A stretch of DNA of 33,798 nt. Origin: Alphaproteobacteria bacterium (GTDB taxonomy: Bacteria > Pseudomonadota > Alphaproteobacteria > Rs-D84). Where the stretch lies: NCBI GenBank assembly GCA_009783145.1, contig WRHR01000011.1:1-33798 (forward strand), read 5' to 3'. The translations under genes were made by a program, and so were the position numbers. Under the pieces are notes generated by a model that worked only from the letters and a program-made list of their open reading frames with translations, ran no database searches and was not told the origin of the DNA. Position 1 is the stretch's first letter; every line of letters starts with the position of its first letter. Positions 19,541 to 33,798 of the stretch are shown here, in pieces.

Positions 19541-20501
19541 ACTGGATTCTTTTGCGAATTATCTGCTGAATACGAAAAAGTATTCTGTTCATACGGCCGA
19601 TGCTTATCGCACCGACATTACGGATTTTATTAAATTTTACGGCGGCTATCGCGGCAATGCATGCCTGCGCGAAGATTTAGCGCGCGTGGATACCCTGGGT
19701 TTCCGCGCGTGGCTGGCGGATCGCGCGAGGCGCGGGCTTTCCGCGAAATCCACCGCGCGCGCGTTGTCGTCCCTGCGCGGATTCTACAAATTTTTGGGCG
19801 CGGAATATGGAATAAAAAACACCGCTATCGGGTTAATCTCCTCGCCGAAAATTCCGCGCAAACTTTCCAAAGCTATAGAGCCGGACGCAATCGAAGACAT
19901 GTCGGATATAATACGCGAGATGGATAACGAGCCATGGGTTGCCGCGCGCGATTGGGCCTTGGTCGTTTTGATTTTCGGATGCGGACTGCGAATTTCCGAA
20001 GCGCTGTCATTAACTTTGCGCGACGTGGCGGGGCGCCCGGAAGTATTGCGAATCCTGGGCAAAGGGTCTAAGGAGCGCCTGGTTCCCGTTCTGCCCGCGG
20101 TATATGACGCGATTGAAAAATATCTCGGGCTGCGCCCGAAAGTAGGAGGTATGAGGTATGAGGTAGGAGGTAAAGAATACGACGCCCTAACCTCCTACTT
20201 TCTACCTCCTACCTCCTACCTTTTTATCAGCATTCGCGGCCTTCCCATGACGGCGCGCATGGCGCAAAAGCAGGTTGAAAAAATCCGCCATTTGTTGCAG
20301 CTGCCTGATTACGTCACGCCTCATGCGCTGCGCCACTCATTTGCAACGGCAATGCTGGGCGGCGGCGTGGATCTGCGAAGCCTGCAGGAGTTGCTGGGGC
20401 ATTCGTCTCTCTCCACCACGCAGCTTTATACTAAAATAGATATGTCACAAATCGCGGCGGCTTATAACAAGGCGCACCCGCGCGCGAAAAAACCGAAATA
20501 A
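19530..20501 (+). CDS. xerC: Tyrosine site-specific recombinase (XerC/XerD type)
   Basis: Xer recombinases resolve chromosome dimers at dif. The product has 323 residues. The N-terminal core-binding SAM-like domain covers 1-100. The catalytic set is R154 (CGLRISEAL), K178 (GKGSKERLVP), H265 and R268 (HALRHSFAT), H291 (LGHSSLSTTQ) and Y300. All are present, so it should be active. A paired heptamer repeat is translated in frame at residues 204-231, just before the conserved LFISIRG strand. XerC rather than XerD is a guess from overall look. It is the last gene of the LOG/protease operon. Confidence 0.9.
   Translation: MNNELDSFANYLLNTKKYSVHTADAYRTDITDFIKFYGGYRGNACLREDLARVDTLGFRAWLADRARRGLSAKSTARALSSLRGFYKFLGAEYGIKNTAIGLISSPKIPRKLSKAIEPDAIEDMSDIIREMDNEPWVAARDWALVVLIFGCGLRISEALSLTLRDVAGRPEVLRILGKGSKERLVPVLPAVYDAIEKYLGLRPKVGGMRYEVGGKEYDALTSYFLPPTSYLFISIRGLPMTARMAQKQVEKIRHLLQLPDYVTPHALRHSFATAMLGGGVDLRSLQELLGHSSLSTTQLYTKIDMSQIAAAYNKAHPRAKKPK
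20141..20222. repeat. Paired 7-base tandem repeat (GGTAGGA type) inside xerC
   Basis: Arm 1 has GGTAGGA/GGTATGA units and arm 2 their complements, with a short loop around AAAGAATACGACGCC. It is read as VGGMRYEVGGK, a short linker, then TSYFLPPTSYL, nearly the same peptide as in priA. GGTATGA units replace the register that would give TAG. Confidence 0.95.
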
Positions 20502-30017: not shown

Positions 30018-30551
30018 TTAAAACGCGTACCGCAATTTCAAACGCACTTCGTTCTGCCAAAAGTCCGCGTGCTCGAAGATGTTCGGCGCGTATGCCGTGC
30101 GGTACTCCACGTCCACGAACAGGCTGGTCGCCGGAATGTTGGACTGCACGCCCAGCATGCCTTGGTACGCGACTTGCGTGTTCATGTCCTCGGATACTCC
30201 GCCCGCCGATACGCTTCCCGCGAACAGCGTTCCTATGCCAAGCCCGACATAGGGTTTCACCATTGGGGTCGGCGTCAGCTTTACATATCCGTTCACGAAC
30301 GCAAGATTGGCGTTCAGGTCGGCACCGCTGCGGGTGCTGTGGATATAGCTATATTCCACTTCCGCGCGGACGACGGGCATGTCCAGTCCGACAAGCGCGC
30401 CGTACGATTGCGCGAACGAATTCGTGCCGCCCGTCTGCAGCGACCCAAGCCCGGCCATAGCCCCGACATAGAAGTCGACCGTGGCCGCGTTAGCCGCGCC
30501 TATGCAGAGCATAGAGCACAGAGCATAGAGCATAGATTTTTTTATATTCAT
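30018..30551 (-). CDS. Outer-membrane beta-barrel protein
   Basis: The protein has 177 residues. The signal peptide MNIKKSMLYALCSMLCIGAANA has its hydrophobic core encoded by TATGCTC-type heptamers. The mature part has alternating strands (VDFYVGAMAGLG, RAEVEYSYIHS, PYVGLGIGTLF, SLFVDVEYRTAY, EVRLKLRYAF) of an eight-stranded barrel like OmpW/Omp25-type porin-like proteins. It ends in phenylalanine, the BAM recognition residue. AAAGGAG precedes the start. It is divergent from pth across a shared -10 region. Confidence 0.85.
   Translation of the reverse strand: MNIKKSMLYALCSMLCIGAANAATVDFYVGAMAGLGSLQTGGTNSFAQSYGALVGLDMPVVRAEVEYSYIHSTRSGADLNANLAFVNGYVKLTPTPMVKPYVGLGIGTLFAGSVSAGGVSEDMNTQVAYQGMLGVQSNIPATSLFVDVEYRTAYAPNIFEHADFWQNEVRLKLRYAF
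30500..30535. repeat. 7-base tandem repeat (TATGCTC type) forming a signal peptide
   Basis: On the coding strand TATGCTC, TATGCTC, TGTGCTC and TATGCTC, then TGCATAG encode MLYALCSMLCIG, the hydrophobic core and start of the c-region. It is single-armed. Confidence 0.93.
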
Positions 30552-30601: not shown

Positions 30602-31372
30602 ATGCAAGAGAATAAACCTATTTCAGACAACGTAAAGGAAATATCGCACGATTTGTGCGAGGGAAAATCATCCGATGCGAGGAAATCCGGCGCAGATGTA
30701 TATAATACATCAAGCCGGATTGACAAAGCAGCGGGGGATTTAACCCGCACGGCTTCGCCGCGGCGTCAATTTGAATCAATAACTTCGGATTCCCGCTCGC
30801 CCGTGTGCTCACACGGGCTTCGCGAAAATCCTCGTTCTTGCTCCAAATTACCTGCCGCAAATCGCGCGATATTTCCTTCACGTTGTCTGATTATTGGCCT
30901 GGGCAATCCCGGCACTGCGTATTCGCAAACGCGGCATAACGTCGGGTTTATGGCGCTGGATGCGCTGGCCGGACCGGATGCGGTTTGGAAGAAAGAGAAG
31001 AACGCGCTGGTGGCGAAACAAGGGAATATTATATTCGCAAAGCCCCAGACTTTTATGAACTTGTCCGGAGTGTCGGTGCAGGCTTTGATGACTTTTTATA
31101 AAGTCCCGCTTGAAAATTTAGTGGTGATTCATGACGATATGGATTTGAAGCTGGGCGACGCGCGCGAAAAAACCGGAGGCAGCAGCGCGGGCCACAACGG
31201 AATCAAAAGCATCGACGCCGCGATCGGAAACGAATACCATCGTATAAGGATAGGGGTAGGGCGGGTCAGCAGAACCGAAATGGACCCGTCGGATTGGGTT
31301 CTGGGGAGATTCTCGGCTGAAGAGTTGAAGAAGATAAAGGAAGTACTTGAAAAAATAGTAGCTAGTCGTTAG
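30602..31372 (+). CDS. pth: Peptidyl-tRNA hydrolase with element-encoded N-terminal extension
   Basis: Pth frees tRNA from stalled peptidyl-tRNA and is essential. The product has 256 residues from ATG at 30602. The true enzyme starts at LIIGLGNPGTAY (residue 96). It keeps the catalytic histidine (TRHNVGF), asparagine residues (FMNLSGV, GGSSAGHNGIKS) and aspartate (IHDDMDL). Residues about 8-96 are encoded wholly by a 266-bp palindromic element, whose right end supplies the first residues of the enzyme. Normal Pth is about 190 residues. A start inside the element (GTG at about 30804, or non-AUG) cannot be excluded. The C-terminal VASR and the stop come from a heptamer repeat. Confidence 0.9.
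   Translation: MQENKPISDNVKEISHDLCEGKSSDARKSGADVYNTSSRIDKAAGDLTRTASPRRQFESITSDSRSPVCSHGLRENPRSCSKLPAANRAIFPSRCLIIGLGNPGTAYSQTRHNVGFMALDALAGPDAVWKKEKNALVAKQGNIIFAKPQTFMNLSGVSVQALMTFYKVPLENLVVIHDDMDLKLGDAREKTGGSSAGHNGIKSIDAAIGNEYHRIRIGVGRVSRTEMDPSDWVLGRFSAEELKKIKEVLEKIVASR
30624..30889. repeat. 266-bp palindromic element in the 5' part of pth
   Basis: The inverted ends match over about 32 bases with two mismatches: CAGACAACGTAAAGG at the left and CAGACAACGTGAAGG read from the right. Internal hairpins include CGGCTTCGCCGCG and CGTGTGCTCACACG, plus GATGTATATAATACATC. The frame stays open through the element. One copy is seen in the window. Confidence 0.92.
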
Positions 31373-31473
31373 TCGCTAGCAATTCGGCGCAACAAATAGC
31401 ATTGTCCATTATAATGGACATTGTTCATATCGGCACATACCTACTAGCGACTAGCTACTAACGACTAGCGACT
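31356..31473. repeat. Paired 7-base tandem repeat (TAGTCGC type) after pth
   Basis: Arm 1 (31356-31381) encodes the pth C terminus and its TAG stop. Arm 2 (31439-31473) is complementary. The middle holds the perfect 18-base palindrome TGTCCATTATAATGGACA at 31403-31420, similar to one in the 13165-13310 locus. Confidence 0.93.
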
Positions 31474-31526: not shown

Positions 31527-32393
31527 ATGAAGAAATTTGCCATTTGCTATTTGCTATTTGCTATTTGCGCCGGCGCGGCCGGTGCTGCCGCGACTTGCTC
31601 GAAGCAATCTCTCAACGCTTGCATCGATTCATCGTGCGCGATAAACATCGGCGCTAATCCGGCCGCCAGATGCCAGCTATGCGGCACGGCGACCGCAGGC
31701 GACGCGCCAACCGGCACAGGAATGCAACAACTGGCCCTCGGCGCATCAAGCAAGAATACTTTGTCGGAAAGAGAGCTGCGGGCCGCGCCGCGCGATCCGG
31801 CGGACAGATATGCCTGGACAGTTGCCCAATGCATTAAGAAAATCGGCGGCGCCTGCACTCTGGACGATGTCGAGGATTACGACAAACTTATAGAGCAATC
31901 ATGCCGCGCGGCGGGCCTGGATATGCAATTCGCAAGCGCGCAGAAAAAAGCGACGACCCAAAAGACAAGGTCCGCATGCGAATCCGAAATAAGCCTGTGC
32001 ATACGCGGCGATAAAAGATGCGGCTCCGGCTTTACCGCTTGCAAAGAGGACGCCGACTTCGACAAGTTCTTTGCGGCCTGCGCGGTGGAGGCCACGGGCT
32101 GCGACCAGTTCACGAAAGACATCCGTACGGCAAGCATATCCGCGCGCGACAACAGCATAAAGAATGCAAGCGGGCTGCTGGCCAGCATAGTCGCGGGATA
32201 CAGGACCGCGCGCGAAGACAGGCTTAACGCGGCGAAAGAAGGCTGCAAAAGCAACGCTTCGCGCGACGCATGCGTTCAGATGGTGTGCGCTGAAAATATG
32301 AGGAACAAATGCGCGAGCGGCTTCGAATCCGAAGTATCGATGGCGAACTTGCTGTGCAAGTTTCATGAGACTGCCTGCGGCCGTCTCAAGTAA
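31527..32393 (+). CDS. Secreted cysteine-module protein
   Basis: The protein has 288 residues. The signal peptide MKKFAICYLLFAICAGAAGA is mostly encoded by TTTGCTA heptamers. The mature part begins with a CSKQSLNACIDSSC unit. At residues 151-172 it has the four-cysteine module CESEISLC, KRC, GSGFTAC. A third cysteine region (CAVEATGC, CKSNASRDACVQMVC) is near the end, with charged helices between. It is homologous in module to the proteins at 24712-27117 and 32440-33798 and lies directly before the latter. A weak ribosome site (GAGAG) is present. Function unknown; probably a disulfide-bonded periplasmic or surface protein. Confidence 0.8.
   Translation: MKKFAICYLLFAICAGAAGAAATCSKQSLNACIDSSCAINIGANPAARCQLCGTATAGDAPTGTGMQQLALGASSKNTLSERELRAAPRDPADRYAWTVAQCIKKIGGACTLDDVEDYDKLIEQSCRAAGLDMQFASAQKKATTQKTRSACESEISLCIRGDKRCGSGFTACKEDADFDKFFAACAVEATGCDQFTKDIRTASISARDNSIKNASGLLASIVAGYRTAREDRLNAAKEGCKSNASRDACVQMVCAENMRNKCASGFESEVSMANLLCKFHETACGRLK
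31536..31569. repeat. 7-base tandem repeat (TTTGCTA type) forming a signal peptide
   Basis: TTTGCCA, three TTTGCTA units and TTTGCGC encode FAICYLLFAICA, the hydrophobic core of the signal peptide. It is single-armed. Confidence 0.94.
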
Positions 32394-32528
32394 AGAATAA
32401 AGAATAATGAATAAAGAGAAAATAATCTTTGTTGATAATATGAATACCGGCAGGACTGATGTTCACGCTGCGTCATCTATTCGCCATTCTTTATTCTTTA
32501 TTCTTTATTCTTTGTTCTTTATTCTTTG
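32391..32528. repeat. Paired 7-base tandem repeat (TTTATTC type) enclosing a gene start
   Basis: Arm 1 (32391-32417) begins with the TAA stop of the upstream gene and carries AAAGAAT/AATAATG-type units. Arm 2 (32486-32528) has about six TTTATTC units and encodes the signal-peptide core SLFFILYSLFFILC of the next gene. The ATG at 32440 lies in the loop. Confidence 0.94.
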
Positions 32529-33798
32529 CATCGGCGCAGCTGATGCGGCGGTTGTTTCGCGCCCAACGGCGGCAGCGCCCGCGGCTTCGCGCGGGCGTCC
32601 CGCGCCTGCGGCCGCAGCGACTCCGCGCGCTACCTCGGTCGTGGCCGCACCGGCCGCTCAGCCGGTCGTGGAAGAAGTCGTTGTAGTTGAAGCAACTCCT
32701 GCGCCGGTAGTTGTCGAAGAGATTGCACTGCCGCCGGAAGATAAGGCCTTGCGGTTTGACGAAGTATTGCAAGGTTCGGGCGGCGGGTCGGCAGCATCGG
32801 AATCGGAGCTTAAAAATCTTATAGCGGCGCAGCGCACTGCGGGAGCCGCAAGCGAGGCGATTATGCTCAGCGCGTCATCCACCGGCGGAGCGGTAACCGG
32901 CGCGCGCGGCTGCGATGACGGCCTTCGCGCTTGCATGAAAGATAAGTGCGGCGAGAATTTTGAGAAATGCGCAACGGATGGCGACACCGCTTGGGGCGAC
33001 AAGATAGATTCGTGCAGGCGCGGTACCGCATGCACGTCCGAGGAATACAACGCGCTGGCGCCGGAGATAAAAGCGGACCGCGACGCGTTCCTGACTATCG
33101 GCTCGTTCGACAAAGTTTTGAACTGCGGGATAGAATATAACGAATGCATAGTGGCGGGATGCGGACAACAGCTTAACGCATGCAAGGGCAAAGCCGCGGG
33201 AGACAAGGTTATCGCGGACTGCAAGAAAATCGCGGACAGATGCCGCGAGCAGGACAGCGGTCTTGCGGCGCGGGCGATGGAAGTATTCGCAACCCTTCGC
33301 ATCGATGCGGAAAAACAGATCAAGGCGGACGAACAGAAGCTTTACGCGCTGCGCGACAAGATGTCGGAATTATGCCGCAGAACCGGCGCGATGTTCGACG
33401 ACCGGTCGTACGAATGCGTGTTCACGGTAGAGCTGACCTCGACGGATTCGCATTGGCGCACGGCGGCAAACCCGAGCGGGCTGGTCGCTTCGCAGAAATT
33501 GCACCCAAGCGCGACTTATGATTGCGATCCGGGATGGTTCGGAATCGACGTCACGACGTTCATAGAGAACGCGTTCCGCTTGACTCGATCGCAGACCGCG
33601 GCATCCAGCGCGATGCTGGGGGCGGGCGTCGGCACTGGGGTGGGCGCGATAACTAATAACTTGATGACCACGGGGCAAATGTTCGGCGGAACTTCCAAGG
33701 CTCAAGACGACAGGGATAACGCGAAGAAAGCATTGGAAGACGAATGCGAGAATCAAGGCGGCGTTATTGTAAACAGCAAGTGCAGCTTTGACCCGAAA
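32440..33798 (+). CDS. Secreted cysteine-module protein, C terminus beyond window
   Basis: At least 453 residues, still open at the window end. The start is ATG at 32440 (MNTGRTDVHAASSIRH), followed by the repeat-coded hydrophobic core and the cleavage region CIGAADAA. No good ribosome site is seen. An Ala/Pro/Val linker runs to about residue 95. Four-cysteine modules start at about 158 (CDDGLRAC, DKC, GENFEKC) and 229 (CGIEYNEC, AGC, GQQLNAC). A Gly/Ala-rich hydrophobic segment (MLGAGVGTGVGAITNN) near 390 may insert in a membrane and resembles those of the protein at 16771. It is homologous in module to the proteins at 24712 and 31527. Confidence 0.8.
   Translation, partial: MNTGRTDVHAASSIRHSLFFILYSLFFILCIGAADAAVVSRPTAAAPAASRGRPAPAAAATPRATSVVAAPAAQPVVEEVVVVEATPAPVVVEEIALPPEDKALRFDEVLQGSGGGSAASESELKNLIAAQRTAGAASEAIMLSASSTGGAVTGARGCDDGLRACMKDKCGENFEKCATDGDTAWGDKIDSCRRGTACTSEEYNALAPEIKADRDAFLTIGSFDKVLNCGIEYNECIVAGCGQQLNACKGKAAGDKVIADCKKIADRCREQDSGLAARAMEVFATLRIDAEKQIKADEQKLYALRDKMSELCRRTGAMFDDRSYECVFTVELTSTDSHWRTAANPSGLVASQKLHPSATYDCDPGWFGIDVTTFIENAFRLTRSQTAASSAMLGAGVGTGVGAITNNLMTTGQMFGGTSKAQDDRDNAKKALEDECENQGGVIVNSKCSFDPK

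Follow-up and report, generated by a model that had tools for sequence, protein, structure and literature searches.

Predicted signal peptides with hydrophobic cores built from heptamer repeat arrays in an alphaproteobacterial genome and its relatives

Rickettsia palindromic elements are palindromic repeat DNA lying in frame inside protein genes of a reduced-genome alphaproteobacterium, and in the cyanobacterial heptanucleotide repeats STRR and P6b degenerate heptamers face each other as the two arms of a stem and do not code for protein. Heptanucleotide long simple sequence repeats in bacteria have a sporadic phylogenetic distribution and exceed chance expectation (Mrazek et al. 2007, cited in PMC4679880), and repeats in coding DNA are usually multiples of three (PMC4679880). 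The TAACTGA repeats of marine Beggiatoaceae consist of 2-6 direct heptamer copies near gene starts, where a translational role has been proposed (PMC4679880), and the tandem repeats of Borg elements generate new protein segments in the form of disordered regions (PMC9879509). Our search of the open-access literature found no account of heptamer arrays that code for signal peptides.

The window studied here, i.e., the whole 33,798-nt stretch analyzed, is contig C11 of an alphaproteobacterial genome (G000; 0.95 Mb in 24 contigs). A sequence-only reading had claimed that three secreted proteins in it carry signal peptides whose hydrophobic core is itself a tandem heptamer array, and we confirm the three arrays and their peptides: SMLYALCSMLC (30506-30536), KFAICYLLFAIC (31535-31568) and HSLFFILYSLFFILC (32486-32527). 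The first, a TATGCTC/TCTRTGC array on the minus strand, encodes the core of the signal peptide MNIKKSMLYALCSMLCIGAANA of an outer-membrane beta-barrel protein (OMP_b-brl; 30018-30551, minus strand; Pfam PF13505, E=1.5e-11). The second, a plus-strand TTTGCTA array of ~4.9 units, encodes the core of the signal peptide MKKFAICYLLFAICAGAAGA of a predicted exported Cys-rich protein (31527-32393, plus strand, from an ORF call), for which a Pfam search matched no family and orthologs were found across the family. The third, a plus-strand TTTATTC array of six units, encodes the core in a predicted exported protein (32440-33798, plus strand) that runs off the window end, has an uncertain start (32440 or 32407) and gave no match in a Pfam search.

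Each of the three arrays closes at C, followed by (I/A)GAA(N/G/D)A, so the claim that they share a stopping point holds relative to the cleavage region; it does not hold relative to the N-terminus, because the 32440 protein has a long, uncertain n-region. Signal peptides and genes were called throughout by simple heuristic rules and not by SignalP. By these rules the features of a Sec-type signal peptide are present, i.e., a positive n-region, a hydrophobic core and a small-residue AxA-like cleavage motif, and the rule-based prediction marks the n-region of the 32440 gene as atypical.

As 7 is coprime to 3, a heptamer array yields one heptapeptide per strand. The further claim that any T-rich heptamer makes a hydrophobic peptide stands for stop-free T-rich units and fails as a universal rule. 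The units used in signal peptides translate to FILYSLF, SMLYALC, FALCSLL or ICYLLFA, and variants that remove a stop occur, e.g., in LLIANCSLLIA. Common units such as AATTGCT, ACGATTT and TCCTACC contain stops, charged residues or proline and are seldom or never found in signal peptides; the frequent intergenic units likewise translate with stops, charges or prolines. The opposite strand of signal-peptide-type units gives hydrophilic inserts, e.g., EHRAQS, in other proteins.

Period-7 arrays were surveyed in 20-kb stretches of G000 (390 kb, ~41% of the genome) at a score cut-off of >=10, with a dinucleotide Markov sequence as the shuffle control; L052, L053 and part of L051 consist of N and stand outside this sample. 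There are 179 such arrays in the 390 kb vs 1 in the shuffle; periods 5, 6, 8, 9, 10 and 11 yield 1-13 arrays each in the 434-kb set used for the period scans, which includes N stretches. A chance origin of the period-7 arrays is excluded, and as tandem units beyond chance they are long simple sequence repeats, here belonging to ~12 heptamer unit families. Array density per 100 kb is 30 in G003, 45 in G005 and 17.5 in G011; arrays are rare or absent in the remaining family members sampled, and small stretches sampled from other families of the order and class contained none. The relatives of G000 include MAGs labelled Alphaproteobacteria or Rickettsiales, plus Candidatus Enterousia; isolate names suggest a termite-gut origin for several, and others were sampled from ruminant, horse and further gut sources. 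The nearest is G001, the sole further genome that we found in the genus, and 400 kb of it was scanned.

Genome-wide, rule-based signal peptide calls are enriched in period-7 arrays, both in the G000 sample and in relatives, as the sequence-only reading had expected. Heptamer arrays form 16 of 78 predicted signal peptide cores in the G000 sample, where they occupy 16.4% of the bases of these cores, 4.7% of intergenic DNA, 0.72% of other coding DNA and 0.37% of internal TM-like segments; their density in signal peptide cores is ~4 times that of intergenic DNA and >20 times that of other coding DNA. Six of the eight arrays found in the 400 kb of G001 sit in signal peptide cores. Random intergenic windows of equal length average 4.2 hits in G000 (maximum 12 in 2000 draws) vs 16 observed, 0.2 vs 6 in G001 and 1.65 vs 8 in G005, and the observed count was unmatched in 2000 intergenic draws in all three genomes. 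At codons 3-17 an array is present in 4 of 255 genes without a signal peptide vs 16 of 78 with one (p=5e-8), and two of those four encode exported-type proteins by Pfam (M23 peptidase and LptD). That arrays just track gene 5' ends was rejected, since genes without signal peptides rarely carry them at those codons. The rules overlooked at least three more signal peptide arrays (window 32486, L043 7876 and L044 10271), owing to how starts were assigned or to small gene size. Of the 34 arrays whose units are hydrophobic, half are in signal peptides, five more are upstream partner arms of signal peptide arrays and most of the remainder are antisense hydrophilic inserts.

The Pfam families of array-bearing genes are LptD, SurA, D-Ala-D-Ala carboxypeptidase, M23 peptidase, VirB9/CagX, OMP and LspA, i.e., envelope proteins wherever Pfam gave a family, an indirect pointer to the predicted export and N-terminal cleavage of the array-bearing proteins. 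Signal peptidase II (LspA) also has a membrane segment encoded by an array (L048 5856-5884), and a second array (L044 4049-4080) encodes a hydrophobic internal segment of a protein that we take, from our own reading and not a family search, to be Lnt-like; internal transmembrane use of arrays is otherwise rare.

Five orthologous exported protein families, chosen for the arrays that G000 carries in each of them, contain signal peptide arrays in 35 of 104 gene-genome cases, which is not an unbiased rate given that choice; in another exported family, selected for the absence of an array from its G000 member, none of the 10 members examined has one. Signal peptide arrays of the D-Ala-D-Ala carboxypeptidase (DacA-like), for example, are found in 10 of 22 genomes, and their units include TTTATTC, TTTTGCC, TCATTGT, TTGTCAC, TGCCTTA, TATCTGT and TTTTCAC. 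The six array-bearing members of the L049_11316 family each have a heptamer of their own and are interspersed with array-free relatives. Array-bearing members are scattered in both of two trees, and the sister pair G000/G001 differ in unit in both families; many branches of these trees are weakly supported, so counts of array gains are qualitative. Relatives carry different heptamers at one and the same position of a gene, which would amount to repeated recruitment of repeat DNA as an export signal. The trait is not uniform, since just 3 of the 80 orthologs of 31527 across the wider family (named loci, mainly from animal-gut MAGs) have a signal peptide array.

The proposal that such repeats create export signals was not borne out: ortholog sets keep their signal peptides with or without an array, and since array-free orthologs still have them, the arrays replace the cores of existing signal peptides. 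Nor was lengthening supported, as members of the 31527 family have 26.0 residues before the anchor Cys with an array vs 23.8 without (averages that ignore phylogeny), a gain of ~2 residues that is far below the 7-10 contributed by an array; the signal peptide of one ortholog (G003, L188) is clearly longer. A scan of array-free signal peptides for a decayed period-7 signal found no excess, so no continuum from array to non-repeat is visible. Elsewhere, the EHRAQS insert at L043 16189-16219 aligns gap-free to the non-repetitive stretch ECEERRAKSTD in G001 (L061), which is possibly a decayed array.

The reading we favor, at a probability of roughly 0.6, is that the signal peptides are of the Sec type and functional, and that their cores were overwritten by ~31-bp arrays that spread from a genome-specific pool and were kept for their hydrophobicity. 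Beneath it lie the observed enrichment in signal peptide cores, the recurrence of different heptamers in orthologs, unit sharing within genomes, a fixed length class and the existence of array-free signal peptides. Every array-rich genome would hold its own heptamer set, and arrays would arise at, or be copied into, many genomic sites. T-rich, stop-free units with hydrophobic readings would provide an h-region of fitting length and be kept by selection for hydrophobicity, because hydrophobicity is all that a core requires and its length is roughly that of one array; units with other readings would survive as hydrophilic inserts or in intergenic DNA. On the time scale of genera an array could then be swapped for another heptamer or for non-repetitive codons with export retained. 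Signal peptide function, the selection behind retention and spread from a pool are what we infer here. Passive tolerance alone is insufficient, because signal peptide cores hold more arrays than intergenic DNA, and there must be stronger retention or targeting at these cores than in intergenic DNA. A bolder version, which we hold possible though doubtful, is lineage-wide active copying of genome-specific arrays preferentially into signal peptide cores, as a favored target and not a tolerant site; if so, the export signals of housekeeping envelope proteins would be periodically rewritten by repeat DNA.

In situ slippage is an unlikely alternative, in which a local microrepeat would grow by 7-nt steps under frame selection for three added units (+21 nt), signal peptide cores being the most tolerant sites. 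Array lengths in G000 are indeed quantised at ~7n+4 bp with the chief peak at 30-33 bp, and the 4.5-unit class contains 16 of 16 automatically detected signal peptide arrays (29-35 bp), 52 of 73 arrays in other CDS and 40 of 89 intergenic ones. Since coding arrays cluster at 4.5 units and intergenic lengths are broader, local slippage with a frame filter would fit; slippage by itself predicts a wider length spread. Heptanucleotides have also been reported to be, in most genomes, the commonest of the long simple repeats, and polymerase slippage has been proposed (Mrazek 2007, cited in PMC4679880); several different units occur among the signal peptide arrays of G001. Against this, the frame-preserving 3-, 6- and 9-nt arrays are nearly missing, array-bearing signal peptides are only slightly longer than others, and TTTATTC recurs in at least six signal peptide or transmembrane genes of G000. 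Different genes share a unit in 27% of within-genome pairs vs 9% of between-genome pairs (p=0.001 without G000), so spread from a genome-specific pool is favored over purely local slippage. Speaking against such a pool, the G001 unit TTTTGGC is present in two signal peptide arrays only, and no intergenic donor pool is therefore visible today in that genome.

We consider it improbable, more so than slippage, that mobile or templated inverted-repeat hairpins landed on gene starts, their downstream arm becoming the h-region and the hairpin perhaps coupling translation to the upstream gene. Array pairs in the 390 kb of G000 are inverted in 36 cases and direct in 4, and the partners of signal peptide arrays always lie upstream: 5 of the 16 G000 arrays have one, as do window 32486 and L043 7876, no downstream inverted partner was found in G000, and G013 and G003 show the same arrangement. 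In the window, the 32486-32527 array pairs, in inverted orientation and as the downstream arm, with TAAAGAA units at 32391-32414 (plus strand); this upstream arm starts inside the stop codon of 31527-32393, an overlap that would suit translational coupling. Predicted folds of signal peptide array plus upstream arm range from -38 to -69 kcal/mol (-43.7 kcal/mol for 32391-32527), with the start codon in the loop; the stems predicted at window 32391-32527, L046 4545-4676, L048 11767-11919 and L043 7876-8000 have -44 to -69 kcal/mol. Most signal peptide arrays are nevertheless unpartnered, including all those tested in G001 and G005, which led us to reject them as invariable hairpin halves; in addition, the loops of the pairs are ordinary gene starts without a common core, and no transposase or target duplication was found.

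Inverted pairs also occur away from signal peptides as in-frame insertions in other genes, which would suit hairpin elements. In the window, one pair with a hydrophilic reading lies in a priA-like gene (2778-2865) and another in a tyrosine-recombinase (xerC/D-like) gene (20142-20221); more were observed in conserved enzymes at L040 14523-14633 and 15651-15775 and at L051 4770-4840 and 7493-7563, and these inserts in conserved enzymes are absent from relatives. An intergenic pair of TAGTCGC/ACTAGCG arrays (31356-31473), separate from the signal peptide array, flanks a palindrome at 31402-31421. This 20-bp palindrome, TTGTCCATTATAATGGACAA, has 17 copies in the 390 kb of G000, 0 in the shuffle and 0 in the 400 kb of G001, its sites including window 31402-31421, window 13206, L040 15704, L042 1594 and L046 15001. 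Twelve copies sit amid inverted heptamer arms and two (L040 16264 and L042 12614) amid hexamer-like TGCAGG/TGCACC arms, an arrangement that looks like a family of small inverted-repeat elements. The core is shared by 17 intergenic or CDS elements and not by signal peptide arrays.

Very improbable is a role as contingency loci, in which copy-number change in the array would switch or tune export. The arrays do lie in coding DNA at the starts of surface-protein genes, where a one-unit change shifts the frame. The switching proposed in the sequence-only reading is not supported, however: all 16 automatically detected G000 signal peptide arrays fall in one length class and lack the broad copy-number spread of contingency loci (the hand-added window array 32486, at six units, departs from the class), orthologs vary less in copy number than in which unit they have, and several of the array-bearing genes are probably essential (LptD and LspA by Pfam). 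We give hardly any credence to an RNA-level role, in which a regulator, e.g., a cold-shock protein, would attach to U-rich heptamers in the 5' coding region with the signal peptide reading as a by-product, since, although signal peptide arrays are T-richer than other cores (0.53-0.61 vs 0.42-0.46) and B. subtilis CspB has been reported to bind heptamer repeats, preferring TTCTTTT over TTTTTT (PMC4679880), that T-richness follows from hydrophobic codons, array position tracks the h-region and not the start codon or UTR, and genes without signal peptides largely lack arrays.

Replacement of signal peptide cores by arrays from a genome-specific pool, the reading we prefer, would be a natural and repeated demonstration that such a core can be exchanged wholesale for repeat DNA with hydrophobicity alone kept. 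It shows a route into coding sequence for a repeat unit that is not a multiple of three, makes testable why heptamer arrays favor signal peptide cores over non-coding DNA, and offers an ortholog series (one protein, varied heptamer cores) ready for measuring signal peptide function.

Compared with known systems, the arrays resemble the repeats of Mrazek et al. in their tandem 7-nt units, sporadic distribution and statistical excess, and differ in that each genome contains many unit families, lengths are narrowly set at ~31 bp and the arrays are concentrated in signal peptide cores. They share with the TAACTGA repeats of Beggiatoaceae heptamer direct repeats near gene starts, but those are copies of one unit, lie for the most part in untranslated sequence immediately before the start codon, and do not encode signal peptides. 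As in the Borg repeats, tandem DNA repeats yield protein segments, here hydrophobic signal peptide cores from a unit of 7 nt, a length not divisible by 3. The in-frame palindromic inserts in priA, uvrC and xer genes are like Rickettsia palindromic elements, and a palindrome inside the CDS is found in these inserts and not in the signal peptide arrays; unlike those elements, the present inserts have arms made of heptamer arrays from many families, and most signal peptide arrays are single. The cyanobacterial STRR and P6b would be alike in placing heptamers in facing stem arms, and differ in that the signal peptide arrays are protein-coding.
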